Part shown: piece after piece, positions 9,221 to 39,205 of the stretch | Numbering within the stretch: position 1 is the first letter of the stretch | How the letters are laid out: every line of letters starts with the position of its first letter | Source: Maylandia zebra | Lineage: Eukaryota; Chordata; Actinopteri; Cichliformes; Cichlidae | Direction of reading: 5' to 3' | Length of the DNA stretch: 64,000 bases | Assembly: GCF_041146795.1 (NCBI RefSeq) | Contig: NC_135177.1 | Span: forward strand, 21,374,560 to 21,438,559 | The notes under the pieces: generated by a model | Database searches by the model: none | What the model was told of the DNA's origin: nothing | What the model saw: only the letters and a program-made list of their open reading frames with translations | Program-made: the position numbers and the translations under genes

Positions 9221-14838
<5,618 letters not shown>

Positions 14839-17745: not shown

Positions 17746-18288
17746 TATTTACAGCAAACTAAACTTGGAAAATGATCATTAAGTTGGCTCATTTTTGCCT
17801 ATGAGGTCTAAAACTTCTGCTTACATTTCAACATGAATGTACTACTACTTTCTACTTAGTACCCGAGTAATCCAGCAGAACAGCTCCAAGATGGTGGTGG
17901 TGTAAAGGCAGCCCTCTCTATGATATAGAGGAAATATATTTCATTTGAGGGTCAAATATTACAAGCTCCATTTAAAACAAACAGCACTATCAAAATACCA
18001 GGAAAAACGTAATTGCCTTTATAAAAAACAATGTGTGCAGACCAGCTTTAATTGTGGACAAATTGAAATTCAAACTTCAGTCAGGTATAAATATACCCAA
18101 ACGGTATATTTATTTTTTTTCTTTCCACCAAAGTAAATATGATTCAATAGATTTTTGTAATTCCACGAAAAATCACCTTGCCCGGTGGGCCGATGGCCAG
18201 TCCAGCTATGGTCATTACGAGGGAAATTTCTTTTGCAGTTTGTCTGAAAAGATGGACTTGCGCTTCGGGATCCTTTAAACATCATCAG

Positions 18289-18509
18289 GCGCGTTGCTAC
18301 GCGCTGTCTGTCCTGTCTGTGAGCTCACAAAGCAGCAGTACGGGGATGAATGACGTCACACACATGGATCCTCTGTCGGAATATAGTAAAACCGAGGATG
18401 GTTGGTTAGTTGGCTTAGTCCTCCTTTGATCGAATCAAAGGATCAAAGGATCGAAGAGAGCTGACGTCATGGCTGACGTCACGGTCGCTGCCAGAAAAAT
18501 CTATAAATA
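18289..18509 (+). promoter_or_regulatory. Unit promoter: CRE and TCF/LEF-type sites with TATA box
   Basis: Three perfect TGACGTCA octamers (CREB/ATF consensus) lie at 18351, 18462 and 18474; the last two are 12 bp apart, about one helical turn. Between them are CCTTTGATC (18423), ATCAAAGG (18434) and GATCAAAGG (18441), which fit the TCF/LEF consensus. The first two form an inverted repeat with 9-bp arms round CGA. TATAAATA is at 18502-18509, 149 bp before the ATG. Upstream are GCGCGT-TGCT-ACGCGC (18289-18304) and the palindrome GTGAGCTCAC (18319-18328). The same layout, at the same distance from the ATG, recurs with TATA at 21218, 23934, 26643, 29360, 32065, 34784 and 57561. Binding by these factors is inferred from motifs alone. 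Confidence 0.75.
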
Positions 18510-18650
18510 GACCCCAGTTTCTTTAACTCGGCATTTCAAGAAACACCTTGTTGTTTTCGCAAGCCAGGAATCCTTGGGAAAGAGAACAGTTTAACACTGA
18601 AATTATTCAGTTAGCGGTTTTGTTTTGTTTTTTGCGAAACTTTTATAGAA

Positions 18651-19187
18651 ATGTCACAGGAACCGTCCAGCAATTCAGTGTCTCACAGAGAAACGAGAGA
18701 GGAAGGACCGTCCAACTCAGGGGAGAGAGGAATAGTCCAGGGCATGGAGCCCAAAAAGAAAATTCGCATAAGCGAGATAGAGGGGGTGCCCGTAAAAATA
18801 ACACTGCAGATTGGAGCACTTGAGCAAAATGTGCATGAACTTGAGGAAACGCAAGAGTTTCTCCTTGAACAGAACAACACCATTGTTGTTCAGCTGTCCA
18901 AGGCTGAAAGCGAGAGAAATGAACTAAAGAAACGGAATGCAGATCTCGAGAAAGCTTTGAAAACTATTAAGGGTCAAGTGGAAGAATTACAGTTTTCAAA
19001 AACCAAAAATGCTGCTGAACCTGAGGGACTTGAGACTCCTGTTGCTCAACCACCTCAGGATGAGGTTCAGGGTACTGGTATGTGGCATCGTGGTGCCAAA
19101 TGCCTACTTAAAGTAGGTTTAGGTCTTGCCACAGCGGCCCTTATTGTTCCTGCAGCTTTCTGGGTCTTCTCAAAGATGTCCACCTGA
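18651..19187 (+). CDS. Unrecognised 178-residue coiled-coil, tail-anchored-type protein, copy 1
   Basis: I do not recognise this protein. Residues 1-35 are polar and Ser/Glu-rich. Residues 34-39 (PKKKIR) are basic. About 50-117 is a strongly charged heptad-like stretch (LEQNVHELEETQEF, KKRNADLEKALKT), predicted coiled coil. About 118-148 is Pro/Glu-rich. Residues 155-173 are hydrophobic (VGLGLATAALIVPAAFWVF), flanked by R147/K150/K154 and K175, and only five residues follow. With no signal peptide, this is the layout of a tail-anchored membrane protein; a short anchor with basic flanks is often mitochondrial outer membrane or ER, an inference only. The ATG has A at -3 (GAAATG), lies 142 bp after the TATA box, and is uninterrupted. 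AATAAA occurs at 19774. The same ORF, with almost no change, recurs in every unit. Confidence 0.8.
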   Translation: MSQEPSSNSVSHRETREEGPSNSGERGIVQGMEPKKKIRISEIEGVPVKITLQIGALEQNVHELEETQEFLLEQNNTIVVQLSKAESERNELKKRNADLEKALKTIKGQVEELQFSKTKNAAEPEGLETPVAQPPQDEVQGTGMWHRGAKCLLKVGLGLATAALIVPAAFWVFSKMST

Positions 19188-19589
19188 CGTGAATGACCCA
19201 GCTGCTCCCTGTGGCATTGTGTTTATAACTGATGCGCACCTGCGGACCACTTATGTGCACCCCTGTTTATAATCTTGTGAAAGACGCACGACAGACCTGA
19301 CCATATACTCGTGTTTTTCATCATCTACTTTTATTACTACAGGTTTACCACTACAGATGGCTGCAGCTTTGCAGCTCACAGCCACACACAGTAACAACAA
19401 CAACACAGCAGGACCTAGTTCAGCCTTTAAACCAGCAAGGCATGATTGCAGATTGGCGCTCAGGTGCGTCCACCTCCCCTGCTTTCCAACCACGGTCCAC
19501 CAACTACACCAACCTCCGATAACTATGCAGTGCTCTCCTTTAAGTTTTATTTTGCCCCTCACCCCCCAACCAGTCGCGGCAGATGACTG

Positions 19590-19705
19590 CCCCTTCTTGA
19601 ACCTGGTTCTGCCTCAGGTTTCTTCCTGTGAAAGGGAGTTTTTCCTGGCCACCGTTGCCCAGTGCTTGTTCATAGGGGATCATTTGATTGTTGGGGTTTA
19701 TTCTT
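19590..19705 (+). repeat. Dispersed fish repeat inside each array unit
   Basis: The stretch containing TCTGCCTCAGGTTTCTTCCT, GGGAGTTTTTCC and GGGGATCATTTGATTGTTGG matches a repeat I know from very many teleost sequences. It lies about 400-520 bp after the stop codon, so it would fall in the 3' UTR. It is at the same position in all seven units and in the ninth, hence was present before amplification. Confidence 0.6.
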
Positions 19706-20193
19706 TAAAATGTCATTTTATTTAAATTATTTCAGGTGAGGGGTTCACTTGATAGGGAGCACAAAAAGCTGCAAATAAAAAAAAAAAAAAAAAGGTGTAT
19801 TTAGCTGCAAATCAAAAATTAAAAAAAACAAATATTAAATTTCCCTACTGCTTCGTTTATTTACTTAAAAGAACAGCTTTAAATTTTGTGTGATAGTGTC
19901 ATGGCCCTTGGTCAAGTGATCCAGGGTTTATCTTTTGGACTGTGTGAATCTGGTTTAATTTGTGTCCTTTGATTTAATAGTATTCATGGTTCTGTTTCTC
20001 ATCTCCCATGTGTCCATGTTGCTTTTGTATGTCGTGTCTCTTTAGCCGCCGCAGCAGTGGGCGGGCACATCCACATCATCCACGTCGCCGCCAACATACG
20101 TTGTATGTTTAGACCATTTATATCATTTGACATCCACAGGACATAGAGGTTCGAAAGACACTGAGTCATGCAATACCTTTAATGAGAATACTG

Positions 20194-20508
20194 TCAGTGA
20201 ACACTGATGAGCTTCTGCTTCTTTAATGAGCCATAATTCTCATTAAAGAAGCAGGTTGGCTCATAAAGTGCTCTGTAGTTATCTAATGCAACTGCCATTT
20301 GTTTCAGGACATAACCACAATCTGTAATCAACACAGGGTTTATTGAACTGTCGGCTGTGCAGACAACATGGCACGCATGAAAAATGGGTAAGGACATTTT
20401 GTGAACACTCATAGTTGATGTCTTAATTATGGGAATAGCTACTATGTAATTGATGCTTCCTATTCTATCAGATAAGGTGCACCTTGTGTGGAAGTTAAGT
20501 TGGCTCAT
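20194..20508 (-). other. Minus-strand 104-codon ORF with 14-bp hairpin, copy 1
   Basis: An open frame of 104 codons begins MSQLNFHTRC and includes MSVHKMSLPIFHACHVVC and ITDCGYVLKQMAVALDNY. I do not recognise it; it could be an exon, a fossil of a transposon protein, or chance. Near its 3' end lies a perfect inverted repeat, GCTTCTTTAATGAG (20217-20230) and its complement (20239-20252), with an 8-nt loop. Further copies with the same protein are at 22909-23223, 25619-25933, 28335-28649, 31041-31355, 33759-34073, 36465-36779 and 59260-59574. Because the units are nearly identical, conservation of the frame says nothing about selection. Confidence 0.3.
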
Positions 20509-23209
20509 TTTTGCCTATGAGGTCTAAAACTTCTGCTTACATTTCAACATGAATGTACTACTACTTTCTACTTAGTACCCGAGTAATCCAGCAGAACAGC
20601 TCCAAGATGGTGGTGGTGTAAAGGCAGCCCTCTCTATGATATAGAGGAAATATATTTCATTTGAGGGTCAAATATTACAAGCTCCATTTAAAACAAACAG
20701 CACTATCAAAATACCAGGAAAAACGTAATTGCCTTTAAAAAAAACAATGTGTGCAGACCAGCTTTAATTGTGGACAAATTGAAATTCAAACTTCAGTCAG
20801 GTATAAATATACCCAAACGGTATATTTATTTTTTTTCTTTCCACCAAAGTAAATATGATTCAATAGATTTTTGTAATTCCACGAAAAATCACCTTGCCCG
20901 GTGGGCCGATGGCCAGTCCAGCTATGGTCATTACGAGGGAAATTTCTTTTGCAGTTTGTCTGAAAAGATGGACTTGCGCTTCGGGATCCTTTAAACATCA
21001 TCAGGCGCGTTGCTACGCGCTGTCTGTCCTGTCTGTGAGCTCACAAAGCAGCAGTACGGGGATGAATGACGTCACACACATGGATCCTCTGTCGGAATAT
21101 AGTAAAACCGAGGACGGTTGGTTAGTTGGCTTAGTCCTCCTTTGATCGAATCAAAGGATCAAAGGATCGAAGAGAGCTGACGTCATGGCTGACGTCACGG
21201 TCGCTGCCAGAAAAATCTATAAATAGACCCCAGTTTCTTTAACTCGGCATTTCAAGAAACACCTTGTTGTTTTCGCAAGCCAGGAATCCTTGGGAAAGAG
21301 AACAGTTTAACACTGAAATTATTCAGTTAGCGGTTTTGTTTTGTTTTTTGCGAAACTTTTATAGAAATGTCACAGGAACCGTCCAGCAATTCAGTGTCTC
21401 ACAGAGAAACGAGAGAGGAAGGACCGTCCAACTCAGGGGAGAGAGGAATAGTCCAGGGCATGGAGCCCAAAAAGAAAATTCGCATAAGCGAGATAGAGGG
21501 GGTGCCCGTAAAGATAACACTGCAGATTGGAGCACTTGAGCAAAATGTGCATGAACTTGAGGAAACGCAAGAGTTTCTCCTTGAACAGAACAACACCATT
21601 GTTGTTCAGCTGTCCAAGGCTGAAAGCGAGAGAAATGAACTAAAGAAACGGAATGCAGATCTCGAGAAAGCTTTGAAAACTATTAAGGGTCAAGTGGAAG
21701 AATTACAGTTTTCAAAAACCAAAAATGCTGCTGAACCTGAGGGACTTGAGACTCCTGTTGCTCAACCACCTCAGGATGAGGTTCAGGGTACTGGTATGTG
21801 GCATCGTGGTGCCAAATGCCTACTTAAAGTAGGTTTAGGTCTTGCCACAGCGGCCCTTATTGTTCCTGCAGCTTTCTGGGTCTTCTCAAAGATGTCCACC
21901 TGACGTGAATGACCCAGCTGCTCCCTGTGGCATTGTGTTTATAACTGATGCGCACCTGCGGACCACTTATGTGCACCCCTGTTTATAATCTTGTGAAAGA
22001 CGCACGACAGACCTGACCATATACTCGTGTTTTTCATCATCTACTTTTATTACTACAGGTTTACCACTACAGATGGCTGCAGCTTTGCAGCTCACAGCCA
22101 CACACAGTAACAACAACAACACAGCAGGACCTAGTTCAGCCTTTAAACCAGCAAGGCATGATTGCAGATTGGCGCTCAGGTGCGTCCACCTCCCCTGCTT
22201 TCCAACCACGGTCCACCAACTACACCAACCTCCGATAACTATGCAGTGCTCTCCTTTAAGTTTTATTTTGCCCCTCACCCCCCAACCAGTCGCGGCAGAT
22301 GACTGCCCCTTCTTGAACCTGGTTCTGCCTCAGGTTTCTTCCTGTGAAAGGGAGTTTTTCCTGGCCACCGTTGCCCAGTGCTTGTTCATAGGGGATCATT
22401 TGATTGTTGGGGTTTATTCTTTAAAATGTCATTTTATTTAAATTATTTCAGGTGAGGGGTTCACTTGATAGGGAGCACAAAAAGCTGCAAATAAAAAAAA
22501 AAAAAAAAGGTGTATTTAGCTGCAAATCAAAAATTAAAAAAAACAAATATTAAATTTCCCTACTGCTTCGTTTATTTACTTAAAAGAACAGCTTTAAATT
22601 TTGTGTGATAGTGTCATGGCCCTTGGTCAAGTGATCCAGGGTTTATCTTTTGGACTGTGTGAATCTGGTTTAATTTGTGTCCTTTGATTTAATAGTATTC
22701 ATGGTTCTGTTTCTCATCTCCCATGTGTCCATGTTGCTTTTGTATGTCGTGTCTCTTTAGCCGCCGCAGCAGTGCGCGGGCACATCCACATCATCCACGT
22801 CGCCGCCAACATACGTTGTATGTTTAGACCATTTATATCATTTGACATCCACAGGACATAGAGGTTCGAAAGACACTGAGTCATGCAATACCTTTAATGA
22901 GAATACTGTCAGTGAACACTGATGAGCTTCTGCTTCTTTAATGAGCCATAATTCTCATTAAAGAAGCAGGTTGGCTCATAAAGTGCTCTGTAGTTATCTA
23001 ATGCAACTGCCATTTGTTTCAGGACATAACCACAATCTGTAATCAACACAGGGTTTATTGAACTGTCGGCTGTGCAGACAACATGGCACGCATGAAAAAT
23101 GGGTAAGGACATTTTGTGAACACTCATAGTTGATGTCTTAATTATGGGAATAGCTACTATGTAATTGATGCTTCCTATTCTATCAGATAAGGTGCACCTT
23201 GTGTGGAAG
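20495..23209 (+). repeat. Array unit 2 (type A)
   Basis: TATA 21218, gene 21367-21903. Carries the 10-bp insertion type (AGCCACACACAGTAAC near 22096), 8 A residues in the leader A-tract (about 20738) and GTGCACCCC at 21971; these three define the A type of unit. Confidence 0.95.
21367..21903 (+). CDS. 178-residue coiled-coil, tail-anchored-type protein, copy 2
   Basis: The protein is identical to copy 1, with Lys-Gly at residues 107-108. It differs from copy 1 only by silent changes such as AAG for AAA before the ITLQIG segment. Confidence 0.8.
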   Translation: MSQEPSSNSVSHRETREEGPSNSGERGIVQGMEPKKKIRISEIEGVPVKITLQIGALEQNVHELEETQEFLLEQNNTIVVQLSKAESERNELKKRNADLEKALKTIKGQVEELQFSKTKNAAEPEGLETPVAQPPQDEVQGTGMWHRGAKCLLKVGLGLATAALIVPAAFWVFSKMST

Positions 23210-25919
23210 TTAAGTTGGCTCATTTTTGCCTATGAGGTCTAAAACTTCTGCTTACATTTCAACATGAATGTACTACTACTTTCTACTTAGTACCCGAGTA
23301 ATCCAGCAGAACAGCTCCAAGATGGTGGTGGTGTAAAGGCAGCCCTCTCTATGATATAGAGGAAATATATTTCATTTGAGGGTCAAATATTACAAGCTCC
23401 ATTTAAAACAAACAGCACTATCAAAATACCAGGAAAAACGTAATTGCCTTTAAAAAAAAACAATGTGTGCAGACCAGCTTTAATTGTGGACAAATTGAAA
23501 TTCAAACTTCAGTCAGGTATAAATATACCCAAACGGTATATTTATTTTTTTTCTTTCCACCAAAGTAAATATGATTCAATAGATTTTTGTAATTCCACGA
23601 AAAATCACCTTGCCCGGTGGGCCGATGGCCAGTCCAGCTATGGTCATTACGAGGGAAATTTCTTTTGCAGTTTGTCTGAAAAGATGGACTTGCGCTTCGG
23701 GATCCTTTAAACATCATCAGGCGCGTTGCTACGCGCTGTCTGTCCTGTCTGTGAGCTCACAAAGCAGCAGTACGGGGATGAATGACGTCACACACATGGA
23801 TCCTCTGTCGGAATATAGTAAAACCGAGGACGGTTGGTTAGTTGGCTTAGTCCTCCTTTGATCGAATCAAAGGATCAAAGGATCGAAGAGAGCTGACGTC
23901 ATGGCTGACGTCACGGTCGCTGCCAGAAAAATCTATAAATAGACCCCAGTTTCTTTAACTCGGCATTTCAAGAAACACCTTGTTGTTTTCGCAAGCCAGG
24001 AATCCTTGGGAAAGAGAACAGTTTAACACTGAAATTATTCAGTTAGCGGTTTTGTTTTGTTTTTTGCGAAACTTTTATAGAAATGTCACAGGAACCGTCC
24101 AGCAATTCAGTGTCTCACAGAGAAACGAGAGAGGAAGGACCGTCCAACTCAGGGGAGAGAGGAATAGTCCAGGGCATGGAGCCCAAAAAGAAAATTCGCA
24201 TAAGCGAGATAGAGGGGGTGCCCGTAAAGATAACACTGCAGATTGGAGCACTTGAGCAAAATGTGCATGAACTTGAGGAAACGCAAGAGTTTCTCCTTGA
24301 ACAGAACAACACCATTGTTGTTCAGCTGTCCAAGGCTGAAAGCGAGAGAAATGAACTAAAGAAACGGAATGCAGATCTCGAGAAAGCTTTGAAAACTATT
24401 AAGGGTCAAGTGGAAGAATTACAGTTTTCAAAAACCAAAAATGCTGCTGAACCTGAGGGACTTGAGACTCCTGTTGCTCAACCACCTCAGGATGAGGTTC
24501 AGGGTACTGGTATGTGGCATCGTGGTGCCAAATGCCTACTTAAAGTAGGTTTAGGTCTTGCCACAGCGGCCCTTATTGTTCCTGCAGCTTTCTGGGTCTT
24601 CTCAAAGATGTCCACCTGACGTGAATGACCCAGCTGCTCCCTGTGGCATTGTGTTTATAACTGATGCGCACCTGCGGACCACTTATGTGCATCCCTGTTT
24701 ATAATCTTGTGAAAGACGCACGACAGACCTGACCATATACTCGTGTTTTTCATCATCTACTTTTATTACTACAGGTTTACCACTACAGATGGCTGCAGCT
24801 TTGCAGCTCACAGTAACAACAACAACACAGCAGGACCTAGTTCAGCCTTTAAACCAGCAAGGCATGATTGCAGATTGGCGCTCAGGTGCGTCCACCTCCC
24901 CTGCTTTCCAACCACGGTCCACCAACTACACCAACCTCCGATAACTATGCAGTGCTCTCCTTTAAGTTTTATTTTGCCCCTCACCCCCCAACCAGTCGCG
25001 GCAGATGACTGCCCCTTCTTGAACCTGGTTCTGCCTCAGGTTTCTTCCTGTGAAAGGGAGTTTTTCCTGGCCACCGTTGCCCAGTGCTTGTTCATAGGGG
25101 ATCATTTGATTGTTGGGGTTTATTCTTTAAAATGTCATTTTATTTAAATTATTTCAGGTGAGGGGTTCACTTGATAGGGAGCACAAAAAGCTGCAAATAA
25201 AAACAAATTAAAAAAAAGGTGTATTTAGCTGCAAATCAAAAATAAAAAAAAAACAAATATTAAATTTCCCTACTGCTTCGTTTATTTACTTAAAAGAACA
25301 GCTTTAAATTTTGTGTGATAGTGTCATGGCCCTTGGTCAAGTGATCCAGGGTTTATCTTTTGGACTGTGTGAATCTGGTTTAATTTGTGTCCTTTGATTT
25401 AATAGTATTCATGGTTCTGTTTCTCATCTCCCATGTGTCCATGTTGCTTTTGTATGTCGTGTCTCTTTAGCCGCCGCAGCAGTGGGCGGGCACATCCACA
25501 TCATCCACGTCGCCGCCAACATACGTTGTATGTTTAGACCATTTATATCATTTGACATCCACAGGACATAGAGGTTCGAAAGACACTGAGTCATGCAATA
25601 CCTTTAATGAGAATACTGTCAGTGAACACTGATGAGCTTCTGCTTCTTTAATGAGCCATAATTCTCATTAAAGAAGCAGGTTGGCTCATAAAGTGCTCTG
25701 TAGTTATCTAATGCAACTGCCATTTGTTTCAGGACATAACCACAATCTGTAATCAACACAGGGTTTATTGAACTGTCGGCTGTGCAGACAACATGGCACG
25801 CATGAAAAATGGGTAAGGACATTTTGTGAACACTCATAGTTGATGTCTTAATTATGGGAATAGCTACTATGTAATTGATGCTTCCTATTCTATCAGATAA
25901 GGTGCACCTTGTGTGGAAG
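23210..25919 (+). repeat. Array unit 3 (type B)
   Basis: TATA 23934, gene 24083-24619. Lacks the 10-bp CCACACACAG insertion (near 24810), has 9 A residues in the leader tract (near 23451) and GTGCATCCC; these define the B type. The tract after the 3' AATAAA reads AAATAAAAACAAATT, a variant shared with unit 6. Confidence 0.95.
24083..24619 (+). CDS. 178-residue coiled-coil, tail-anchored-type protein, copy 3
   Basis: Same protein as copies 1 and 2 (Lys-Gly at 107-108), even though it sits in a B-type unit. Copies 5 and 7, also in B-type units, carry Gln-Cys there. Confidence 0.8.
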   Translation: MSQEPSSNSVSHRETREEGPSNSGERGIVQGMEPKKKIRISEIEGVPVKITLQIGALEQNVHELEETQEFLLEQNNTIVVQLSKAESERNELKKRNADLEKALKTIKGQVEELQFSKTKNAAEPEGLETPVAQPPQDEVQGTGMWHRGAKCLLKVGLGLATAALIVPAAFWVFSKMST

Positions 25920-28635
25920 TTAAGTTGGCTCATTTTTGCCTATGAGGTCTAAAACTTCTGCTTACATTTCAACATGAATGTACTACTACTTTCTACTTAG
26001 TACCCGAGTAATCCAGCAGAACAGCTCCAAGATGGTGGTGGTGTAAAGGCAGCCCTCTCTATGATATAGAGGAAATATATTTCATTTGAGGGTCAAATAT
26101 TACAAGCTCCATTTAAAACAAACAGCACTATCAAAATACCAGGAAAAACGTAATTGCCTTTAAAAAAAACAATGTGTGCAGACCAGCTTTAATTGTGGAC
26201 AAATTGAAATTCAAACTTCAGTCAGGTATAAATATACCCAAACGGTATATTTATTTTTTTTCTTTCCACCAAAGTAAATATGATTCAATAGATTTTTGTA
26301 ATTCCACGAAAAATCACCTTGCCCGGTGGGCCGATGGCCAGTCCAGCTATGGTCATTACGAGGGAAATTTCTTTTGCAGTTTGTCTGAAAAGATGGACTT
26401 GCGCTTCGGGATCCTTTAAACATCATCAGGCGCGTTGCTACGCGCTGTCTGTCCTGTCTGTGAGCTCACAAAGCAGCAGTACGGGGATGAATGACGTCAC
26501 ACACATGGATCCTCTGTCGGAATATAGTAAAACCGAGGACGGTTGGTTAGTTGGCTTAGTCCTCCTTTGATCGAATCAAAGGATCAAAGGATCGAAGAGA
26601 GCTGACGTCATGGCTGACGTCACGGTCGCTGCCAGAAAAATCTATAAATAGACCCCAGTTTCTTTAACTCGGCATTTCAAGAAACACCTTGTTGTTTTCG
26701 CAAGCCAGGAATCCTTGGGAAAGAGAACAGTTTAACACTGAAATTATTCAGTTAGCGGTTTTGTTTTGTTTTTTGCGAAACTTTTATAGAAATGTCACAG
26801 GAACCGTCCAGCAATTCAGTGTCTCACAGAGAAACGAGAGAGGAAGGACCGTCCAACTCAGGGGAGAGAGGAATAGTCCAGGGCATGGAGCCCAAAAAGA
26901 AAATTCGCATAAGCGAGATAGAGGGGGTGCCCGTAAAGATAACACTGCAGATTGGAGCACTTGAGCAAAATGTGCATGAACTTGAGGAAACGCAAGAGTT
27001 TCTCCTTGAACAGAACAACACCATTGTTGTTCAGCTGTCCAAGGCTGAAAGCGAGAGAAATGAACTAAAGAAACGGAATGCAGATCTCGAGAAAGCTTTG
27101 AAAACTATTAAGGGTCAAGTGGAAGAATTACAGTTTTCAAAAACCAAAAATGCTGCTGAACCTGAGGGACTTGAGACTCCTGTTGCTCAACCACCTCAGG
27201 ATGAGGTTCAGGGTACTGGTATGTGGCATCGTGGTGCCAAATGCCTACTTAAAGTAGGTTTAGGTCTTGCCACAGCGGCCCTTATTGTTCCTGCAGCTTT
27301 CTGGGTCTTCTCAAAGATGTCCACCTGACGTGAATGACCCAGCTGCTCCCTGTGGCATTGTGTTTATAACTGATGCGCACCTGCGGACCACTTATGTGCA
27401 CCCCTGTTTATAATCTTGTGAAAGACGCACGACAGACCTGACCATATACTCGTGTTTTTCATCATCTACTTTTATTACTACAGGTTTACCACTACAGATG
27501 GCTGCAGCTTTGCAGCTCACAGCCACACACAGTAACAACAACAACACAGCAGGACCTAGTTCAGCCTTTAAACCAGCAAGGCATGATTGCAGATTGGCGC
27601 TCAGGTGCGTCCACCTCCCCTGCTTTCCAACCACGGTCCACCAACTACACCAACCTCCGATAACTATGCAGTGCTCTCCTTTAAGTTTTATTTTGCCCCT
27701 CACCCCCCAACCAGTCGCGGCAGATGACTGCCCCTTCTTGAACCTGGTTCTGCCTCAGGTTTCTTCCTGTGAAAGGGAGTTTTTCCTGGCCACCGTTGCC
27801 CAGTGCTTGTTCATAGGGGATCATTTGATTGTTGGGGTTTATTCTTTAAAATGTCATTTTATTTAAATTATTTCAGGTGAGGGGTTCACTTGATAGGGAG
27901 CACAAAAAGCTGCAAATAAAAAAAAAAAAAAAAAGGTGTATTTAGCTGCAAATCAAAAATTAAAAAAAACAAATATTAAATTTCCCTACTGCTTCGTTTA
28001 TTTACTTAAAAGAACAGCTTTAAATTTTGTGTGATAGTGTCATGGCCCTTGGTCAAGTGATCCAGGGTTTATCTTTTGGACTGTGTGAATCTGGTTTAAT
28101 TTGTGTCCTTTGATTTAATAGTATTCATGGTTCTGTTTCTCATCTCCCATGTGTCCATGTTGCTTTTGTATGTCGTGTCTCTTTAGCCGCCGCAGCAGTG
28201 CGCGGGCACATCCACATCATCCACGTCGCCGCCAACATACGTTGTATGTTTAGACCATTTATATCATTTGACATCCACAGGACATAGAGGTTCGAAAGAC
28301 ACTGAGTCATGCAATACCTTTAATGAGAATACTGTCAGTGAACACTGATGAGCTTCTGCTTCTTTAATGAGCCATAATTCTCATTAAAGAAGCAGGTTGG
28401 CTCATAAAGTGCTCTGTAGTTATCTAATGCAACTGCCATTTGTTTCAGGACATAACCACAATCTGTAATCAACACAGGGTTTATTGAACTGTCGGCTGTG
28501 CAGACAACATGGCACGCATGAAAAATGGGTAAGGACATTTTGTGAACACTCATAGTTGATGTCTTAATTATGGGAATAGCTACTATGTAATTGATGCTTC
28601 CTATTCTATCAGATAAGGTGCACCTTGTGTGGAAG
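25920..28635 (+). repeat. Array unit 4 (type A)
   Basis: TATA 26643, gene 26792-27328. A-type markers are all present (10-bp insertion, 8 A leader tract, GTGCACCCC). Shares GTGCGCGGGC near 28199 with units 2 and 5; the other units read GTGGGCGGGC. Confidence 0.95.
26792..27328 (+). CDS. 178-residue coiled-coil, tail-anchored-type protein, copy 4
   Basis: Protein identical to copies 1-3 (Lys-Gly at 107-108); no private coding change seen. Confidence 0.8.
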   Translation: MSQEPSSNSVSHRETREEGPSNSGERGIVQGMEPKKKIRISEIEGVPVKITLQIGALEQNVHELEETQEFLLEQNNTIVVQLSKAESERNELKKRNADLEKALKTIKGQVEELQFSKTKNAAEPEGLETPVAQPPQDEVQGTGMWHRGAKCLLKVGLGLATAALIVPAAFWVFSKMST

Positions 28636-31341
28636 TTAAGTTGGCTCATTTTTGCCTATGAGGTCTAAAACTTCTGCTTACATTTCAACATGAATGTACT
28701 ACTACTTTCTACTTAGTACCCGAGTAATCCAGCAGAACAGCTCCAAGATGGTGGTGGTGTAAAGGCAGCCCTCTCTATGATATAGAGGAAATATATTTCA
28801 TTTGAGGGTCAAATATTACAAGCTCCATTTAAAACAAACAGCACTATCAAAATACCAGGAAAAACGTAATTGCCTTTAAAAAAAAACAATGTGTGCAGAC
28901 CAGCTTTAATTGTGGACAAATTGAAATTCAAACTTCAGTCAGGTATAAATATACCCAAACGGTATATTTATTTTTTTTCTTTCCACCAAAGTAAATATGA
29001 TTCAATAGATTTTTGTAATTCCACGAAAAATCACCTTGCCCGGTGGGCCGATGGCCAGTCCAGCTATGGTCATTACGAGGGAAATTTCTTTTGCAGTTTG
29101 TCTGAAAAGATGGACTTGCGCTTCGGGATCCTTTAAACATCATCAGGCGCGTTGCTACGCGCTGTCTGTCCTGTCTGTGAGCTCACAAAGCAGCAGTACG
29201 GGGATGAATGACGTCACACACATGGATCCTCTGTCGGAATATAGTAAAACCGAGGACGGTTGGTTAGTTGGCTTAGTCCTCCTTTGATCGAATCAAAGGA
29301 TCAAAGGATCGAAGAGAGCTGACGTCATGGCTGACGTCACGGTCGCTGCCAGAAAAATCTATAAATAGACCCCAGTTTCTTTAACTCGGCATTTCAAGAA
29401 ACACCTTGTTGTTTTCGCAAGCCAGGAATCCTTGGGAAAGAGAACAGTTTAACACTGAAATTATTCAGTTAGCGGTTTTGTTTTGTTTTTTGCGAAACTT
29501 TTATAGAAATGTCACAGGAACCGTCCAGCAATTCAGTGTCTCACAGAGAAACGAGAGAGGAAGGACCGTCCAACTCAGGGGAGAGAGGAATAGTCCAGGG
29601 CATGGAGCCCAAAAAGAAAATTCGCATAAGCGAGATAGAGGGGGTGCCCGTAAAGATAACACTGCAGATTGGAGCACTTGAGCAAAATGTGCATGAACTT
29701 GAGGAAACGCAAGAGTTTCTCCTTGAACAGAACAACACCATTGTTGTTCAGCTGTCCAAGGCTGAAAGCGAGAGAAATGAACTAAAGAAACGGAATGCAG
29801 ATCTCGAGAAAGCTTTGAAAACTATTCAGTGTCAAGTGGAAGAATTACAGTTTTCAAAAACCAAAAATGCTGCTGAACCTGAGGGACTTGAGACTCCTGT
29901 TGCTCAACCACCTCAGGATGAGGTTCAGGGTACTGGTATGTGGCATCGTGGTGCCAAATGCCTACTTAAAGTAGGTTTAGGTCTTGCCACAGCGGCCCTT
30001 ATTGTTCCTGCAGCTTTCTGGGTCTTCTCAAAGATGTCCACCTGACGTGAATGACCCAGCTGCTCCCTGTGGCATTGTGTTTATAACTGATGCGCACCTG
30101 CGGACCACTTATGTGCATCCCTGTTTATAATCTTGTGAAAGACGCACGACAGACCTGACCATATACTCGTGTTTTTCATCATCTACTTTTATTACTACAG
30201 GTTTACCACTACAGATGGCTGCAGCTTTGCAGCTCACAGTAACAACAACAACACAGCAGGACCTAGTTCAGCCTTTAAACCAGCAAGGCATGATTGCAGA
30301 TTGGCGCTCAGGTGCGTCCACCTCCCCTGCTTTCCAACCACGGTCCACCAACTACACCAACCTCCGATAACTATGCAGTGCTCTCCTTTAAGTTTTATTT
30401 TGCCCCTCACCCCCCAACCAGTCGCGGCAGATGACTGCCCCTTCTTGAACCTGGTTCTGCCTCAGGTTTCTTCCTGTGAAAGGGAGTTTTTCCTGGCCAC
30501 CGTTGCCCAGTGCTTGTTCATAGGGGATCATTTGATTGTTGGGGTTTATTCTTTAAAATGTCATTTTATTTAAATTATTTCAGGTGAGGGGTTCACTTGA
30601 TAGGGAGCACAAAAAGCTGCAAATAAAAAAAAAAAAAAAAGGTGTATTTAGCTGCAAATCAAAAATTAAAAAAAACAAATATTAAATTTCCCTACTGCTT
30701 CGTTTATTTACTTAAAAGAACAGCTTTAAATTTTGTGTGATAGTGTCATGGCCCTTGGTCAAGTGATCCAGGGTTTATCTTTTGGACTGTGTGAATCTGG
30801 TTTAATTTGTGTCCTTTGATTTAATAGTATTCATGGTTCTGTTTCTCATCTCCCATGTGTCCATGTTGCTTTTGTATGTCGTGTCTCTTTAGCCGCCGCA
30901 GCAGTGCGCGGGCACATCCACATCATCCACGTCGCCGCCAACATACGTTGTATGTTTAGACCATTTATATCATTTGACATCCACAGGACATAGAGGTTCG
31001 AAAGACACTGAGTCATGCAATACCTTTAATGAGAATACTGTCAGTGAACACTGATGAGCTTCTGCTTCTTTAATGAGCCATAATTCTCATTAAAGAAGCA
31101 GGTTGGCTCATAAAGTGCTCTGTAGTTATCTAATGCAACTGCCATTTGTTTCAGGACATAACCACAATCTGTAATCAACACAGGGTTTATTGAACTGTCG
31201 GCTGTGCAGACAACATGGCACGCATGAAAAATGGGTAAGGACATTTTGTGAACACTCATAGTTGATGTCTTAATTATGGGAATAGCTACTATGTAATTGA
31301 TGCTTCCTATTCTATCAGATAAGGTGCACCTTGTGTGGAAG
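28636..31341 (+). repeat. Array unit 5 (type B)
   Basis: TATA 29360, gene 29509-30045. B-type markers are present (no 10-bp insertion, 9 A leader tract, GTGCATCCC). It carries the Gln-Cys coding variant. Confidence 0.95.
29509..30045 (+). CDS. 178-residue coiled-coil, tail-anchored-type protein, copy 5 (QC variant)
   Basis: Residues 107-108 are Gln-Cys (ATTCAGTGTCAAG) instead of Lys-Gly (ATTAAGGGTCAAG), inside the predicted coiled coil. The change removes a helix-breaking glycine and adds a cysteine that could form a disulfide or be modified; either effect is inference. Otherwise identical to copy 1. Confidence 0.8.
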   Translation: MSQEPSSNSVSHRETREEGPSNSGERGIVQGMEPKKKIRISEIEGVPVKITLQIGALEQNVHELEETQEFLLEQNNTIVVQLSKAESERNELKKRNADLEKALKTIQCQVEELQFSKTKNAAEPEGLETPVAQPPQDEVQGTGMWHRGAKCLLKVGLGLATAALIVPAAFWVFSKMST

Positions 31342-34059
31342 TTAAGTTGGCTCATTTTTGCCTATGAGGTCTAAAACTTCTGCTTACATTTCAACATGAA
31401 TGTACTACTACTTTCTACTTAGTACCCGAGTAATCCAGCAGAACAGCTCCAAGATGGTGGTGGTGTAAAGGCAGCCCTCTCTATGATATAGAGGAAATAT
31501 ATTTCATTTGAGGGTCAAATATTACAAGCTCCATTTAAAACAAACAGCACTATCAAAATACCAGGAAAAACGTAATTGCCTTTAAAAAAAACAATGTGTG
31601 CAGACCAGCTTTAATTGTGGACAAATTGAAATTCAAACTTCAGTCAGGTATAAATATACCCAAACGGTATATTTATTTTTTTTCTTTCCACCAAAGTAAA
31701 TATGATTCAATAGATTTTTGTAATTCCACGAAAAATCACCTTGCCCGGTGGGCCGATGGCCAGTCCAGCTATGGTCATTACGAGGGAAATTTCTTTTGCA
31801 GTTTGTCTGAAAAGATGGACTTGCGCTTCGGGATCCTTTAAACATCATCAGGCGCGTTGCTACGCGCTGTCTGTCCTGTCTGTGAGCTCACAAAGCAGCA
31901 GTACGGGGATGAATGACGTCACACACATGGATCCTCTGTCGGAATATAGTAAAACCGAGGACGGTTGGTTAGTTGGCTTAGTCCTCCTTTGATCGAATCA
32001 AAGGATCAAAGGATCGAAGAGAGCTGACGTCATGGCTGACGTCACGGTCGCTGCCAGAAAAATCTATAAATAGACCCCAGTTTCTTTAACTCGGCATTTC
32101 AAGAAACACCTTGTTGTTTTCGCAAGCCAGGAATCCTTGGGAAAGAGAACAGTTTAACACTGAAATTATTCAGTTAGCGGTTTTGTTTTGTTTTTTGCGA
32201 AACTTTTATAGAAATGTCACAGGAACCGTCCAGCAATTCAGTGTCTCACAGAGAAACGAGAGAGGAAGGACCGTCCAACTCAGGGGAGAGAGGAATAGTC
32301 CAGGGCATGGAGCCCAAAAAGAAAATTCGCATAAGCGAGATAGAGGGGGTGCCCGTAAAGATAACACTGCAGATTGGAGCACTTGAGCAAAATGTGCATG
32401 AACTTGAGGAAACGCAAGAGTTTCTCCTTGAACAGAACAACACCATTGTTGTTCAGCTGTCCAAGGCTGAAAGCGAGAGAAATGAACTAAAGAAACGGAA
32501 TGCAGATCTCGAGAAAGCTTTGAAAACTATTAAGGGTCAAGTGGAAGAATTACAGTTTTCAAAAACCAAAAATGCTGCTGAACCTGAGGGACTTGAGACT
32601 CCTGTTGCTCAACCACCTCAGGATGAGGTTCAGGGTACTGGTATGTGGCATCGTGGTGCCAAATGCCTACTTAAAGTAGGTTTAGGTCTTGCCACAGCGG
32701 CCCTTATTGTTCCTGCAGCTTTCTGGGTCTTCTCAAAGATGTCCACCTGACGTGAATGACCCAGCTGCTCCCTGTGGCATTGTGTTTATAACTGATGCGC
32801 ACCTGCGGACCACTTATGTGCACCCCTGTTTATAATCTTGTGAAAGACGCACGACAGACCTGACCATATACTCGTGTTTTTCATCATCTACTTTTATTAC
32901 TACAGGTTTACCACTACAGATGGCTGCAGCTTTGCAGCTCACAGCCACACACAGTAACAACAACAACACAGCAGGACCTAGTTCAGCCTTTAAACCAGCA
33001 AGGCATGATTGCAGATTGGCGCTCAGGTGCGTCCACCTCCCCTGCTTTCCAACCACGGTCCACCAACTACACCAACCTCCGATAACTATGCAGTGCTCTC
33101 CTTTAAGTTTTATTTTGCCCCTCACCCCCCAACCAGTCGCGGCAGATGACTGCCCCTTCTTGAACCTGGTTCTGCCTCAGGTTTCTTCCTGTGAAAGGGA
33201 GTTTTTCCTGGCCACCGTTGCCCAGTGCTTGTTCATAGGGGATCATTTGATTGTTGGGGTTTATTCTTTAAAATGTCATTTTATTTAAATTATTTCAGGT
33301 GAGGGGTTCACTTGATAGGGAGCACAAAAAGCTGCAAATAAAAACAAATTAAAAAAAAGGTGTATTTAGCTGCAAATCAAAAATAAAAAAAAACAAATAT
33401 TAAATTTCCCTACTGCTTCGTTTATTTACTTAAAAGAACAGCTTTAAATTTTGTGTGATAGTGTCATGGCCCTTGGTCAAGTGATCCAGGGTTTATCTTT
33501 TGGACTGTGTGAATCTGGTTTAATTTGTGTCCTTTGATTTAATAGTATTCATGGTTCTGTTTCTCATCTCCCATGTGTCCATGTTGCTTTTGTATGTCGT
33601 GTCTCTTTAGCCGCCGCAGCAGTGGGCGGGCACATCCACATCATCCACGTCGCCGCCAACATACGTTGTATGTTTAGACCATTTATATCATTTGACATCC
33701 ACAGGACATAGAGGTTCGAAAGACACTGAGTCATGCAATACCTTTAATGAGAATACTGTCAGTGAACACTGATGAGCTTCTGCTTCTTTAATGAGCCATA
33801 ATTCTCATTAAAGAAGCAGGTTGGCTCATAAAGTGCTCTGTAGTTATCTAATGCAACTGCCATTTGTTTCAGGACATAACCACAATCTGTAATCAACACA
33901 GGGTTTATTGAACTGTCGGCTGTGCAGACAACATGGCACGCATGAAAAATGGGTAAGGACATTTTGTGAACACTCATAGTTGATGTCTTAATTATGGGAA
34001 TAGCTACTATGTAATTGATGCTTCCTATTCTATCAGATAAGGTGCACCTTGTGTGGAAG
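31342..34059 (+). repeat. Array unit 6 (type A)
   Basis: TATA 32065, gene 32214-32750. A-type markers are present, but the 3' A-rich tract is the AAATAAAAACAAATT form otherwise seen in unit 3, a sign of exchange between units. Confidence 0.95.
32214..32750 (+). CDS. 178-residue coiled-coil, tail-anchored-type protein, copy 6
   Basis: Protein identical to copy 1 (Lys-Gly at 107-108), lying between two Gln-Cys copies. Confidence 0.8.
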   Translation: MSQEPSSNSVSHRETREEGPSNSGERGIVQGMEPKKKIRISEIEGVPVKITLQIGALEQNVHELEETQEFLLEQNNTIVVQLSKAESERNELKKRNADLEKALKTIKGQVEELQFSKTKNAAEPEGLETPVAQPPQDEVQGTGMWHRGAKCLLKVGLGLATAALIVPAAFWVFSKMST

Positions 34060-36765
34060 TTAAGTTGGCTCATTTTTGCCTATGAGGTCTAAAACTTCTG
34101 CTTACATTTCAACATGAATGTACTACTACTTTCTACTTAGTACCCGAGTAATCCAGCAGAACAGCTCCAAGATGGTGGTGGTGTAAAGGCAGCCCTCTCT
34201 ATGATATAGAGGAAATATATTTCATTTGAGGGTCAAATATTACAAGCTCCATTTAAAACAAACAGCACTATCAAAATACCAGGAAAAACGTAATTGCCTT
34301 TAAAAAAAAACAATGTGTGCAGACCAGCTTTAATTGTGGACAAATTGAAATTCAAACTTCAGTCAGGTATAAATATACCCAAACGGTATATTTATTTTTT
34401 TTCTTTCCACCAAAGTAAATATGATTCAATAGATTTTTGTAATTCCACGAAAAATCACCTTGCCCGGTGGGCCGATGGCCAGTCCAGCTATGGTCATTAC
34501 GAGGGAAATTTCTTTTGCAGTTTGTCTGAAAAGATGGACTTGCGCTTCGGGATCCTTTAAACATCATCAGGCGCGTTGCTACGCGCTGTCTGTCCTGTCT
34601 GTGAGCTCACAAAGCAGCAGTACGGGGATGAATGACGTCACACACATGGATCCTCTGTCGGAATATAGTAAAACCGAGGACGGTTGGTTAGTTGGCTTAG
34701 TCCTCCTTTGATCGAATCAAAGGATCAAAGGATCGAAGAGAGCTGACGTCATGGCTGACGTCACGGTCGCTGCCAGAAAAATCTATAAATAGACCCCAGT
34801 TTCTTTAACTCGGCATTTCAAGAAACACCTTGTTGTTTTCGCAAGCCAGGAATCCTTGGGAAAGAGAACAGTTTAACACTGAAATTATTCAGTTAGCGGT
34901 TTTGTTTTGTTTTTTGCGAAACTTTTATAGAAATGTCACAGGAACCGTCCAGCAATTCAGTGTCTCACAGAGAAACGAGAGAGGAAGGACCGTCCAACTC
35001 AGGGGAGAGAGGAATAGTCCAGGGCATGGAGCCCAAAAAGAAAATTCGCATAAGCGAGATAGAGGGGGTGCCCGTAAAGATAACACTGCAGATTGGAGCA
35101 CTTGAGCAAAATGTGCATGAACTTGAGGAAACGCAAGAGTTTCTCCTTGAACAGAACAACACCATTGTTGTTCAGCTGTCCAAGGCTGAAAGCGAGAGAA
35201 ATGAACTAAAGAAACGGAATGCAGATCTCGAGAAAGCTTTGAAAACTATTCAGTGTCAAGTGGAAGAATTACAGTTTTCAAAAACCAAAAATGCTGCTGA
35301 ACCTGAGGGACTTGAGACTCCTGTTGCTCAACCACCTCAGGATGAGGTTCAGGGTACTGGTATGTGGCATCGTGGTGCCAAATGCCTACTTAAAGTAGGT
35401 TTAGGTCTTGCCACAGCGGCCCTTATTGTTCCTGCAGCTTTCTGGGTCTTCTCAAAGATGTCCACCTGACGTGAATGACCCAGCTGCTCCCTGTGGCATT
35501 GTGTTTATAACTGATGCGCACCTGCGGACCACTTATGTGCATCCCTGTTTATAATCTTGTGAAAGACGCACGACAGACCTGACCATATACTCGTGTTTTT
35601 CATCATCTACTTTTATTACTACAGGTTTACCACTACAGATGGCTGCAGCTTTGCAGCTCACAGTAACAACAACAACACAGCAGGACCTAGTTCAGCCTTT
35701 AAACCAGCAAGGCATGATTGCAGATTGGCGCTCAGGTGCGTCCACCTCCCCTGCTTTCCAACCACGGTCCACCAACTACACCAACCTCCGATAACTATGC
35801 AGTGCTCTCCTTTAAGTTTTATTTTGCCCCTCACCCCCCAACCAGTCGCGGCAGATGACTGCCCCTTCTTGAACCTGGTTCTGCCTCAGGTTTCTTCCTG
35901 TGAAAGGGAGTTTTTCCTGGCCACCGTTGCCCAGTGCTTGTTCATAGGGGATCATTTGATTGTTGGGGTTTATTCTTTAAAATGTCATTTTATTTAAATT
36001 ATTTCAGGTGAGGGGTTCACTTGATAGGGAGCACAAAAAGCTGCAAATAAAAAAAAAAAAAAAAGGTGTATTTAGCTGCAAATCAAAAATAAAAAAAAAC
36101 AAATATTAAATTTCCCTACTGCTTCGTTTATTTACTTAAAAGAACAGCTTTAAATTTTGTGTGATAGTGTCATGGCCCTTGGTCAAGTGATCCAGGGTTT
36201 ATCTTTTGGACTGTGTGAATCTGGTTTAATTTGTGTCCTTTGATTTAATAGTATTCATGGTTCTGTTTCTCATCTCCCATGTGTCCATGTTGCTTTTGTA
36301 TGTCGTGTCTCTTTAGCCGCCGCAGCAGTGGGCGGGCACATCCACATCATCCACGTCGCCGCCAACATACGTTGTATGTTTAGACCATTTATATCATTTG
36401 ACATCCACAGGACATAGAGGTTCGAAAGACACTGAGTCATGCAATACCTTTAATGAGAATACTGTCAGTGAACACTGATGAGCTTCTGCTTCTTTAATGA
36501 GCCATAATTCTCATTAAAGAAGCAGGTTGGCTCATAAAGTGCTCTGTAGTTATCTAATGCAACTGCCATTTGTTTCAGGACATAACCACAATCTGTAATC
36601 AACACAGGGTTTATTGAACTGTCGGCTGTGCAGACAACATGGCACGCATGAAAAATGGGTAAGGACATTTTGTGAACACTCATAGTTGATGTCTTAATTA
36701 TGGGAATAGCTACTATGTAATTGATGCTTCCTATTCTATCAGATAAGGTGCACCTTGTGTGGAAG
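34060..36765 (+). repeat. Array unit 7 (type B)
   Basis: TATA 34784, gene 34933-35469, minus ORF 36465-36779. B-type markers are present. It is the last full unit; 305 bp of an eighth follow before the rpp38 flank. Confidence 0.95.
34933..35469 (+). CDS. 178-residue coiled-coil, tail-anchored-type protein, copy 7 (QC variant)
   Basis: Gln-Cys at 107-108 as in copy 5; otherwise identical to copy 1. It is the array member next to rpp38 copy A. Confidence 0.8.
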   Translation: MSQEPSSNSVSHRETREEGPSNSGERGIVQGMEPKKKIRISEIEGVPVKITLQIGALEQNVHELEETQEFLLEQNNTIVVQLSKAESERNELKKRNADLEKALKTIQCQVEELQFSKTKNAAEPEGLETPVAQPPQDEVQGTGMWHRGAKCLLKVGLGLATAALIVPAAFWVFSKMST

Positions 36766-37194
36766 TTAAGTTGGCTCATTTTTGCCTATGAGGTCTAAAA
36801 CTTCTGCTTACATTTCAACATGAATGTACTACTACTTTCTACTTAGTACCCGAGTAATCCAGCAGAACAGCTCCAAGATGGTGGTGGTGTAAAGGCAGCC
36901 CTCTCTATGATATAGAGGAAATATATTTCATTTGAGGGTCAAATATTACAAGCTCCATTTAAAACAAACAGCACTATCAAAATACCAGGAAAAACGTAAT
37001 TGCCTTTATAAAAAACAATGTGTGCAGACCAGCTTTAATTGTGGACAAATTGAAATTCAAACTTCAGTCAGACCATATTCAATTGTATAAATATGCATGA
37101 AACCAAATGCAATGCTACTAATCTGCTGAAACAATGAATGCAAACCTGAAGGTCTGAGGGTTCCCCAGATAAAAAATAAAGTTTCTCTTTCACT

Positions 37195-37989
37195 TTACAG
37201 CTTTTTCTTCGGCTTCCCTCTCTTTTTCTTTGCAGGGTTAGCAACGATTCTCTTCACCTGGAGCGGCTGCAGAGTGCAGGAGGGAGACTCTGACACCTCC
37301 TCAGATTCACTTTCCAGTTTCCTTTTTTGTCCCCTTCTTTCACCACCTTCCTCCTCCTCCATGGCAACAGGTTCTTCAGGCTTAGCACCTTGCAGCCATG
37401 CCATGTCCAATGTAGGCACTCTGGGCTTAATGGCATCGACAGTGTCGGTAAACACCCCATCATCACTGGAGGAGCACCGTCTGAACCCGAGGGCGAGCAC
37501 GCTTTTCAGCCCCAGCGGCTCCGACACACTCTGGCTCAGGCGAGGCACCTGGCAGGCCGGCACTCCTCTGGTGGTGCTCAGAGCGATCAGGTGATTAGTC
37601 GTGTGTTTCGGTTTGACAGACTTGCACACGAGCAGCAGTCTGAGTTCGTTTCTCTCCAGAGCCTTGGTCACCTCGTTGATGCCGATGGCCAGCTGCTGTC
37701 TGGCTGCCACATCTGTCCAGCCGTTTTTGGAGGAATCGCTCACCTGGGGAACAGGTTGTGGTGCGACATCAGGTTTTTTGCCTTTCTTTTTCCTCCATGG
37801 GCGAAACACTTTCACTTCTTTTTTCTCCAGACCCATTGAGATCAACTTATCCTTCAGAGTTTTCAGGATGAAGTGCATGTCCTCTTGGGGGAGCGGGCTC
37901 CATTTTGAGGCAAAGGGTGAGGTGAAGGAGGTCTTGGCTGGAGTCTGCTTTTTGATTTCCTTTTTAGTCGGCTTTCCGGGAGCTGCCAT
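37195..37989 (-). CDS. rpp38: rpp38 copy A, ribonuclease P/MRP protein subunit p38
   Basis: RPP38 is an L7Ae-family kink-turn RNA-binding subunit of RNase P and RNase MRP, acting in tRNA and rRNA processing in the nucleus and nucleolus. One coding exon gives 264 residues (human about 283). Family signatures are EDMHFILKTLKDKL, QLAIGINEVTKALERNEL, LLLVCKSVKPKH, RGVPACQVPRLS, GLKSVLALGF and IKPRVPTL, followed by an acidic then Lys-rich tail (KKKRGKPKKKL). I chose MAAPGKPTKK (37989) as start; an in-frame ATG 15 bp upstream is also possible. A 5' UTR intron fits 38018-38762 (TTGTTACAG acceptor, CTACAG/GTAACG donor), with the upstream exon at 38763 and above. It differs from copy B at three residues (RQQ/RRQ, HTT/HMT, KRG/KKG) and looks functional. 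Confidence 0.93.
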   Translation of the reverse strand: MAAPGKPTKKEIKKQTPAKTSFTSPFASKWSPLPQEDMHFILKTLKDKLISMGLEKKEVKVFRPWRKKKGKKPDVAPQPVPQVSDSSKNGWTDVAARQQLAIGINEVTKALERNELRLLLVCKSVKPKHTTNHLIALSTTRGVPACQVPRLSQSVSEPLGLKSVLALGFRRCSSSDDGVFTDTVDAIKPRVPTLDMAWLQGAKPEEPVAMEEEEGGERRGQKRKLESESEEVSESPSCTLQPLQVKRIVANPAKKKRGKPKKKL

Positions 37990-38065
37990 GACTGTTTGGA
38001 GCATAAAACAACCGACACTGTAACAAAAGAGAGAAAAACTGCTTTAGAGTCTGGCAACCAATCAC

Positions 38066-38355
38066 TGGATACTTTATTAAGTACACCCGTTCACCTGACT
38101 GGTAATGAAGGCAATCAGATGAGTTCCCTGTACTTAACCTCCACAATCACCAGATCTCAATCAGAGAGAGCACCTTTATGATCTGGTGGAACAGGAGAGT
38201 CACATCATGTATGTGCAGCCACAAATGTAATGCTGTCATGTCAACATGGGTCACATGTTGATCCCCCAAGAATCTTTCATGAAGAAATAAAGCAGTTCTT
38301 AAGGCAAATGGGGGTCCAACCCAGCACAAGGAAGATGTATGAACTGGCCAGTAAA
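38066..38355. mobile_element. Tc1-like transposon remnant in the rpp38 copy A 5' UTR intron
   Basis: It begins with ATACTTTATTAAGTACACCC and ends near AACTGGCCAGT. It contains CTCCACAATCACCAGATCTCA, TGGTGGAACAGGAG and GTCCAACCCAGCACAAGG, all degraded matches to the same fish Tc1-like family as the fossil upstream of nmt2. There is no intact frame. The copy B equivalent is at 61032-61321, so insertion preceded the duplication. Confidence 0.65.
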
Positions 38356-39205
38356 TGTAAATAATTATTGATGTTAAATTAAAGCACAGAAATGCCAAAG
38401 ATGAGTTAACCAGCTTACTCACATATAAAAAACGCATACCGAAATCTTTTTTATTTTCTTGTTTGTTTAAAAGGTAAAAAAGTAAAAGCAGTAAAGAGTA
38501 AACACGACTAAGAGGAATAAAGTAAATTTTAAGATGAGTGAATAAAATAGAAAAAACAAGAGCACATTTGTTAATTTTTTTTTTATCCATAAGTCAGACT
38601 AAACAAACAAACAACGCCATTATACACTAATACGGTTAGTAACGTTTTTATTTCGCATTTCTTTAACGCACATGGAAATGTCGTTAAATTTCGGATCTTC
38701 TTCGGCTCTAATAAAAAATTTTCGCTTCTGCGAGTGTTAAAAACAAACACAGCCGCCGTTACCTGTAGTTAAAGCAGGTAACGCATTTCTCCTCGTCTTC
38801 TTTACAGCTTCAGCACAGCTGCATGAGAGACACACAGGGCGCTGCCATTTTGTTTCAATTTAAATAACTTTATTTAAAAAGCCCCACAGCGCCGAACAGC
38901 GGCGAAAGGGCGACACGACAGTCAAATCATCAAAGAGTCAGCGAAGGCAGTGAAGGTGGAGTTTAAGAGGCGGCGAACACTGTTATCTGACACTGTAGTG
39001 TCTGATGTAGGGAAACGTGCATGAAGTCTCCTTCATGAATCCGCTGGAGTAAAAGTGCACGAGCACAGGAAATAGAAAGTAGGCTTTTCTAAACCAATTA
39101 ATCAATTGGTTTAAATGCACTCAAAAGTGATTTTTTACACCAAGCAATAATATGAATAAAATGAAACATATAAAATAAAAAGGTTTATTTATTCAAATAC
39201 TTCAT
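38356..39205 (-). promoter_or_regulatory. rpp38 copy A intron remainder, 5' UTR exon and upstream region
   Basis: AT-rich intron sequence is followed from 38763 upwards by the presumed non-coding first exon and a GC-richer promoter area (GGGCGCTGCCATTTTG near 38838, GGCGAAAGGGCGACACG near 38900). No TATA box is obvious on the minus strand. Homologous to 61322-62166, with small indels. Confidence 0.45.

Follow-up and report, generated by a model that had tools for sequence, protein, structure and literature searches.

A recently amplified tandem array of a putative tail-anchored coiled-coil gene between NMT2 and RPP38 in Maylandia zebra

The locus and its neighbors

The window, by which we mean the whole stretch of 64,000 nucleotides of contig NC_135177.1 analyzed here, holds the gene order FAM171A1-NMT2-array-RPP38-ACBD7 (Table 1). 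The order FAM171A1-NMT2-RPP38-ACBD7 is presumably the arrangement seen in other vertebrates. RPP38 encodes the p38 subunit of RNase P. The N-myristoyltransferase match covers residues 36–94 of the stretch that was searched, and the acyl-CoA-binding exon at the far end of the window is taken, by its position, to belong to ACBD7.

Between NMT2 and RPP38 lie seven head-to-tail units of about 2.71 kb, found by comparing the first unit with the window, which together occupy 18,987 bp at 18085–37071 (mean unit length 2,712 bp, range 2705–2719). Units 2 to 7 are 99.2–99.9% identical to unit 1. The unit boundary was placed at the duplication joint, the letters of which all seven unit starts share. (The array is absent from the output of a tandem-repeat finder, for which the longest period handled is 500.) What is found, then, is a set of whole-unit copies, arranged head to tail at a single locus and nearly identical in their coding and non-coding parts alike, as in a tandem gene array. 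The array of near-identical 2.7-kb units that a previous sequence-only reading had proposed is confirmed, with seven complete units, and so is its claim that each unit has a TATA promoter and a 178-codon open reading frame (ORF): the TATA box stands at -149 and the ORF is intact in all seven. That reading had also called the ORF the same throughout, which holds for its length and intactness and fails for its identity, since the intact ORFs differ at residues 107–108 and 67.

Some smaller features were seen within the unit. In unit 1, two perfect inverted repeats lie at 20177–20254, one of 16 nt with an 8-nt loop and one of 13 nt with 46 nt between the arms; self-comparison places them in the other full copies too, and they are perhaps a hairpin or the remnant of a small element. 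At 19767–19828 of the same unit, AGCTGCAAAT followed by A-rich runs occurs twice, 36 bp apart, at the first AATAAA, which is 587 bases 3' of the stop of the 178-codon ORF. This repeat is perhaps the trace of a retroposed tail or of a local duplication.

Table 1. Positions of the genes and other features of the window
Feature	Position	Strand	Details
FAM171A1, C-terminal part	3222–4889		Pfam PF20771, E 2.9e-160
N-myristoyltransferase piece	~11636–11812		best NMT2, E 3.6e-31; NMT1 near at 4e-30
Partial leading unit	17779–18084	+	306 bp from the 3' part of a unit; left edge of array
Unit 1	18085–20800	+	TATA 18502; ORF 18651–19187, K107-G108
Unit 1 promoter	18351–18510	+	CREs TGACGTCA at 18351, 18462, 18474; TATAAATAG at 18502
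Unit 1 CTTTGAT/ATCAAAG motifs	18424, 18434, 18442	+
Unit 1 178-codon ORF	18651–19187	+	predicted coiled coil 46–120; predicted C-terminal hydrophobic helix 145–176
Unit 1 122-aa ORF	19357–19725	+	TESTCODE 0.576
Unit 2	20801–23516	+	ORF 21367–21903, K-G
Unit 3	23517–26225	+	ORF 24083–24619, K-G; 10-bp deletion in 3' region
Unit 4	26226–28942	+	ORF 26792–27328, K-G
Unit 5	28943–31647	+	ORF 29509–30045, Q107-C108; 10-bp deletion
Unit 6	31648–34366	+	ORF 32214–32750, K-G
Unit 7	34367–37071	+	ORF 34933–35469, Q-C; 10-bp deletion; adjoins RPP38a
RPP38a	37195–38004	-	269 codons, single exon, intact; 6ahr_C, E 1.5e-53; Pfam Ribosomal_L7Ae
Split, broken copy	39276–42249	+	promoter part 39276–39457; ORF part 41834–42249; then unrelated sequence
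Eighth intact copy	57393–59973	+	ORF 57710–58246, Q-C plus T67M; adjoins RPP38b
RPP38b	60161–60970	-	second intact RPP38, 269 codons; between eighth copy and ACBD7
Acyl-CoA-binding exon	63515–63631		best matches ACBP chains, E 1.6e-14; ACBD7 chain 3epy, E 9e-14

Copies outside the array

Two further copies lie beyond the array. One of them, matched over 57393–59866 in the self-comparison, is complete, and the 178-codon ORF with its ATG is intact in all eight complete copies, that is, the seven units and the copy at 57710. The other is split, matching the unit at 39276–39457 and 41787–42249 in the self-comparison. Its promoter has CTTAAATAG in place of TATAAATAG, with the TATA consensus and one CTTTGAT motif gone; its leader holds a 2.3-kb insertion (39458–41786) flanked by a 15-bp target-site duplication and possessing an A-rich end; and its match to the unit ends after base 416 of the ORF, with loss of the C-terminal end. 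Because of the altered TATA box, the insertion in the leader and the match ending at base 416, we count eight intact copies and one broken one. Of the nine genes proposed earlier, eight therefore stand and the ninth does not. The ORFs of the insertion resemble what we take to be the end of a LINE; in Pfam, that at 40082–40546 had no match, and that at 40634–41131 had one match below threshold.

How did the outlying copies arise? The two RPP38 genes differ at 6 positions in 810 bp (3 nonsynonymous, 3 synonymous), and the roughly 1.2 kb upstream of each differ by 2 substitutions and 6 gap runs. The similarity extends well past the genes: 37177–39205, which includes RPP38 and its upstream region, is 98.87% identical to 60143–62166, and 34616–37178 is 98.95% identical to 57393–59973. 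Beyond RPP38a, positions 39217–39274 have exactly the letters of 63120–63177, which lie within ACBD7, upstream of its exon at 63515. This ACBD7-derived piece continues into the split copy's promoter at ATCCTTTGA, a sequence also found at 63194. The arrangement reads as a tandem duplication of the array gene, RPP38 and an ACBD7 intron, joined at microhomology. Judged from these alignments, the history of the locus is one of segmental duplication plus tandem amplification, in which RPP38 was duplicated along with the outlying copies.

Other elements occupy the space between. A transposase ORF (Pfam DDE_Tnp_4/HTH_Tnp_4) lies on the minus strand at 55125–56189, and 53171–53617 has a Pfam match to viral alkaline exonuclease above the cut-off and to YqaJ just below it; the whole of 51195–56189 is, we presume, perhaps a single ISL2EU-like transposon. 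On the minus strand of 42400–46800, open stretches such as 44922–45446 seem to resemble a multicopy, SAMD3-like fish gene family, and the three stretches tried there (44922–45446, 46340–46780 and 42449–42883) had no Pfam match.

The promoter

The motifs of the promoter are spaced identically in all eight intact copies, with CREs at -300, -189 and -177 from the ATG and CTTTGAT/ATCAAAG, presumably a TCF/LEF-like motif, at -227, -217 and -209. The sequence TATAAATAG occurs eight times in the window, each time at -149 from the ATG of an intact 178-codon ORF. Similarly, 26 of the 27 consensus CREs of the window are in these promoters (three in each of the eight intact copies and two in the broken one), as are 26 of its 45 CTTTGAT motifs. 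Because the copies are so young, their sharing of these motifs does not count as evidence for constraint.

The presence of several CREs together with a TATA box suggests control by CREB, CREM or ATF. According to one study, CREM regulation is predicted by neither a full CRE nor a TATA box, a consensus TATA is present in 6 of 58 CREM-regulated promoters, and full CREs may sit nearer to the start than binding does overall, the profile of which centers near -150 (PMC3091680). The array promoters are like the CREM/CREB target promoters of that study in having the consensus palindromic CRE TGACGTCA shortly upstream of the start.

Are the ORFs genes?

By TESTCODE, using a parameter table reconstructed for this analysis, the two copies tested scored 1.019 (ORF at 18651) and 1.055 (ORF at 57710). 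The background, made up of 244 overlapping windows from the stretch between positions 5 and 17 kb, which includes NMT2 exons, had a mean of 0.503 (sd 0.093, maximum 0.874), and none of the 244 scored as high as the 178-codon ORF. The controls gave 1.129 for RPP38 and 0.835 for FAM171A1; since the latter is a real gene and yet scores below the background maximum, the test is not sharp and can miss genes. The length of the ORF is by itself only moderately surprising, because 4 of 1000 dinucleotide-shuffled versions of one unit contained an ATG ORF of at least 178 codons, in any frame on either strand. A complete ORF behind a TATA box would make the gene apparently intronless.

The only other ORF of at least 120 codons in the units is one of 122 or 134 codons. 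It was rejected as a gene: 50% of the background windows score as high by TESTCODE, and it has no Pfam match. Its sequence seems to resemble a repeat common in percomorph fish. A motif representing that repeat did not occur in viral contigs or the literature, nor did a relaxed form in prokaryote genomes; in the window it was absent within 3 mismatches, the pattern being one base longer than the form present there. An array of structural RNAs was likewise rejected, with no Rfam match up to E 1 in 18085–20800.

Is there any sign of selection on the ORF? The eight intact ORFs have 3 nonsynonymous differences and 1 synonymous difference, for 413.7 and 120.3 sites, respectively (5 and 2 when the broken copy is included), a 3:1 ratio that is neutral-looking and comes from very few events. 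Within the array, the coding sequence has 1.24 substitutions in its 537 bp, compared with 0.29 in 317 bp of upstream and 2.48 in 1602 bp of downstream sequence; when the units are set against the eighth copy, the corresponding values are 2.57, 5.14 and 4.57. Per base, the ORF thus varies more than both flanks within the array; relative to the eighth copy, it varies less than the upstream flank and more than the downstream one. There is no clear sign that the coding sequence varies less than what surrounds it. Three-base periodicity, the regularity of the heptads and the orderly promoter support the reading of the ORF as a gene; no signature of selection does.

The predicted protein

The structure was modeled from one sequence (mean pLDDT 72.8, pTM 0.36). 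The model has a helix at residues 46–120, forming a coiled coil of 75 residues with block pLDDT up to 98, and another at 145–176 with block pLDDT of 72–78, ending two residues before the C-terminus at 178. The N-terminus is of low confidence in the model and probably disordered. At the heptad a and d positions of residues 46–120, 14 of 22 are hydrophobic, a number reached in none of 2000 shuffles. Hydropathy over 19 residues peaks at 2.06 at residue 155, while the best window starting before residue 125 has 0.74. A single strong hydrophobic stretch at the extreme C-terminus, followed by a short tail, is the mark of a tail anchor, and the product is probably a tail-anchored, membrane-anchored and oligomerizing coiled-coil protein. 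A helix of moderate hydrophobicity flanked by basic residues would be consistent with a target in the outer mitochondrial membrane or the ER.

In size and in the order of its parts, which runs from a disordered N-terminus through a coiled coil to a membrane helix at the C-terminus, the predicted protein is like the tail-anchored proteins of the FATE1/MFF type, a likeness of layout only. FATE1/MFF, for which Pfam presumably has a model, is absent from the 23 families that Pfam listed with E up to 1. None of these 23 matches reached its cut-off (the best had 18 bits, against the curated cut-off of 26.7 for Syntaxin, one of the 23), nor did any of the 12 in NCBIfam; all overlap the coil, and these coiled-coil families were rejected. 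The N- or C-terminal pieces alone gave no Pfam match up to E 0.1, and PDB sequences no relative up to E 1. Pattern searches found 8 stretches in viral contigs (IMG/VR) and 37 in prokaryote species genomes, none of which was confirmed as a relative; a fish gene is not expected in either. A literature search found nothing on this gene. The description of the protein as belonging to no recognized family accordingly holds against Pfam, NCBIfam, PDB sequences and viral and prokaryote contigs, none of which is a fish collection.

Could the ORF have come from a transposable element or a captured viral gene, the array being a tandem arrangement of that element? Such an origin would agree with the failure of any family model to reach its cut-off and with the mobile DNA nearby, namely the transposase ORF and the insertion in the split copy. 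On the other hand, unit 1 has no terminal inverted repeat (none of its four inverted pairs of at least 12 nt is at the ends), the same head-to-tail junction recurs at all seven unit joints, and the outlying copies travel with RPP38. In addition, no relative was found in IMG/VR or the prokaryote species genomes, and neither the 178- nor the 122-codon ORF matches a transposon family in Pfam. We regard this origin as improbable.

Divergence and exchange between copies

Compared in pairs, the seven units differ by a mean of 4.0 substitutions in 2456 bp (range 0–7, or 0.16%), and they differ from the eighth copy by a mean of 12.3 (range 9–14, or 0.5%). In the aligned non-coding part there are indels, of 10 bp, of 7 bp and in short runs, and the ORF of the intact copies has none; the 10-bp deletion is present in three of the eight. 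With seven informative sites, all four gametes were found for 10 of 21 site pairs among the eight copies and for 7 of 21 within the seven units, these pairs not being independent (sites 319 and 322 co-vary). Sites 1132, 1170 and 2088 are in or beside A-runs; the pairs 319/1410 and 610/1410 are free of them. Conflicts of this kind would need either exchange between copies or recurrent mutation. Together with the near-identity of the units, they support a recent amplification with exchange between copies, in line with the earlier proposal of recent amplification or continuing gene conversion.

The near-identity, with no substitutions in the aligned part of some unit pairs, could also mean that the array is an assembly artifact or haplotype expansion and that the true genome has fewer units. 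However, the conflicting site combinations within the array, the 10-bp deletion found in only some copies and the differing unit lengths speak against this. A duplicated read path would not easily yield such mosaics, and a mechanical duplicate is for that reason disfavored; we consider an artifact very improbable.

The variant K107-G108 is present in five of the eight intact ORFs and Q107-C108 in three. Since Q107-C108 is found in units 5 and 7, in the eighth copy and in the broken copy (four of nine), it is probably the ancestral form, and K107-G108 (five of nine) would then have spread in the array. By their sequences, the K107-G108 form would lose, and the Q107-C108 form keep, a cysteine of the coil.

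Why was the gene amplified?

The strongest rival to an advantage of dosage is neutral tandem expansion, in which unequal exchange multiplied a gene, either real or recently dead, without dosage benefit and the intact ORFs reflect only youth. The neutral-like ratio of coding changes would be expected, and the few substitutions between units leave little time for decay. The same locus also duplicated RPP38 and gathered insertions, and the broken copy is evidence that copies can be lost. Neutral expansion alone leaves the coding-like composition unexplained, but it is compatible with a gene that was working before it was amplified. We think this explanation possible, if rather unlikely.

The reading that we favor, with moderate confidence, is a recent dosage amplification of a functional, intronless, CRE-bearing gene for a tail-anchored coiled-coil protein. 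It sets out from what is directly observed, namely the array, the intact ORFs, the TATA/CRE promoters, the coding-like composition and the mosaic copies. In the interval from NMT2 to RPP38, a gene that is short and apparently without introns would recently have been amplified. A segmental duplication would have copied it along with RPP38 and part of an ACBD7 intron, and seven head-to-tail units would have come about by unequal exchange, with sequence presumably swapped among them since. Each unit would be self-contained, with a TATA core promoter, three consensus CREs and three TCF/LEF-like motifs driving a putative mRNA with a leader of about 0.12 kb. The encoded protein of 178 residues, with its disordered N-terminus, long coiled coil and C-terminal membrane anchor, would be inserted post-translationally into the ER or the outer mitochondrial membrane and may oligomerize on the cytosolic face. 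Amplification would raise its dose under control of the cAMP/CREB-CREM-ATF type, and dosage would be what was selected. A bolder version, which we consider doubtful, takes the array for a lineage-specific orphan gene, encoding such a protein and controlled by multiple CREs, that very recently reached eight or more functioning copies on account of its dose, which might count in germ cells, say, or in a tissue driven by cAMP; the K107-G108 and Q107-C108 variants would then stand side by side.

In eelpouts and wolffish, the genes for type III antifreeze proteins share recent amplification, tandem repeats and unequal crossing over with the array, and their copy number varies between close relatives (PMC7737890). 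They encode a different protein. By hydropathy, the array protein is hydrophobic in a helix at its C-terminus and has no such stretch at its N-terminus.

The array illustrates recent gene amplification well. Should its copies prove silent, it would show that an intact-looking array can arise without function. If they are expressed, it would offer a clean case of amplification at an early stage, with promoter, ORF, neighbors, duplication joints and mosaics all legible in a single window, and its protein, lacking a recognized family, would become a candidate for dosage-driven adaptation.
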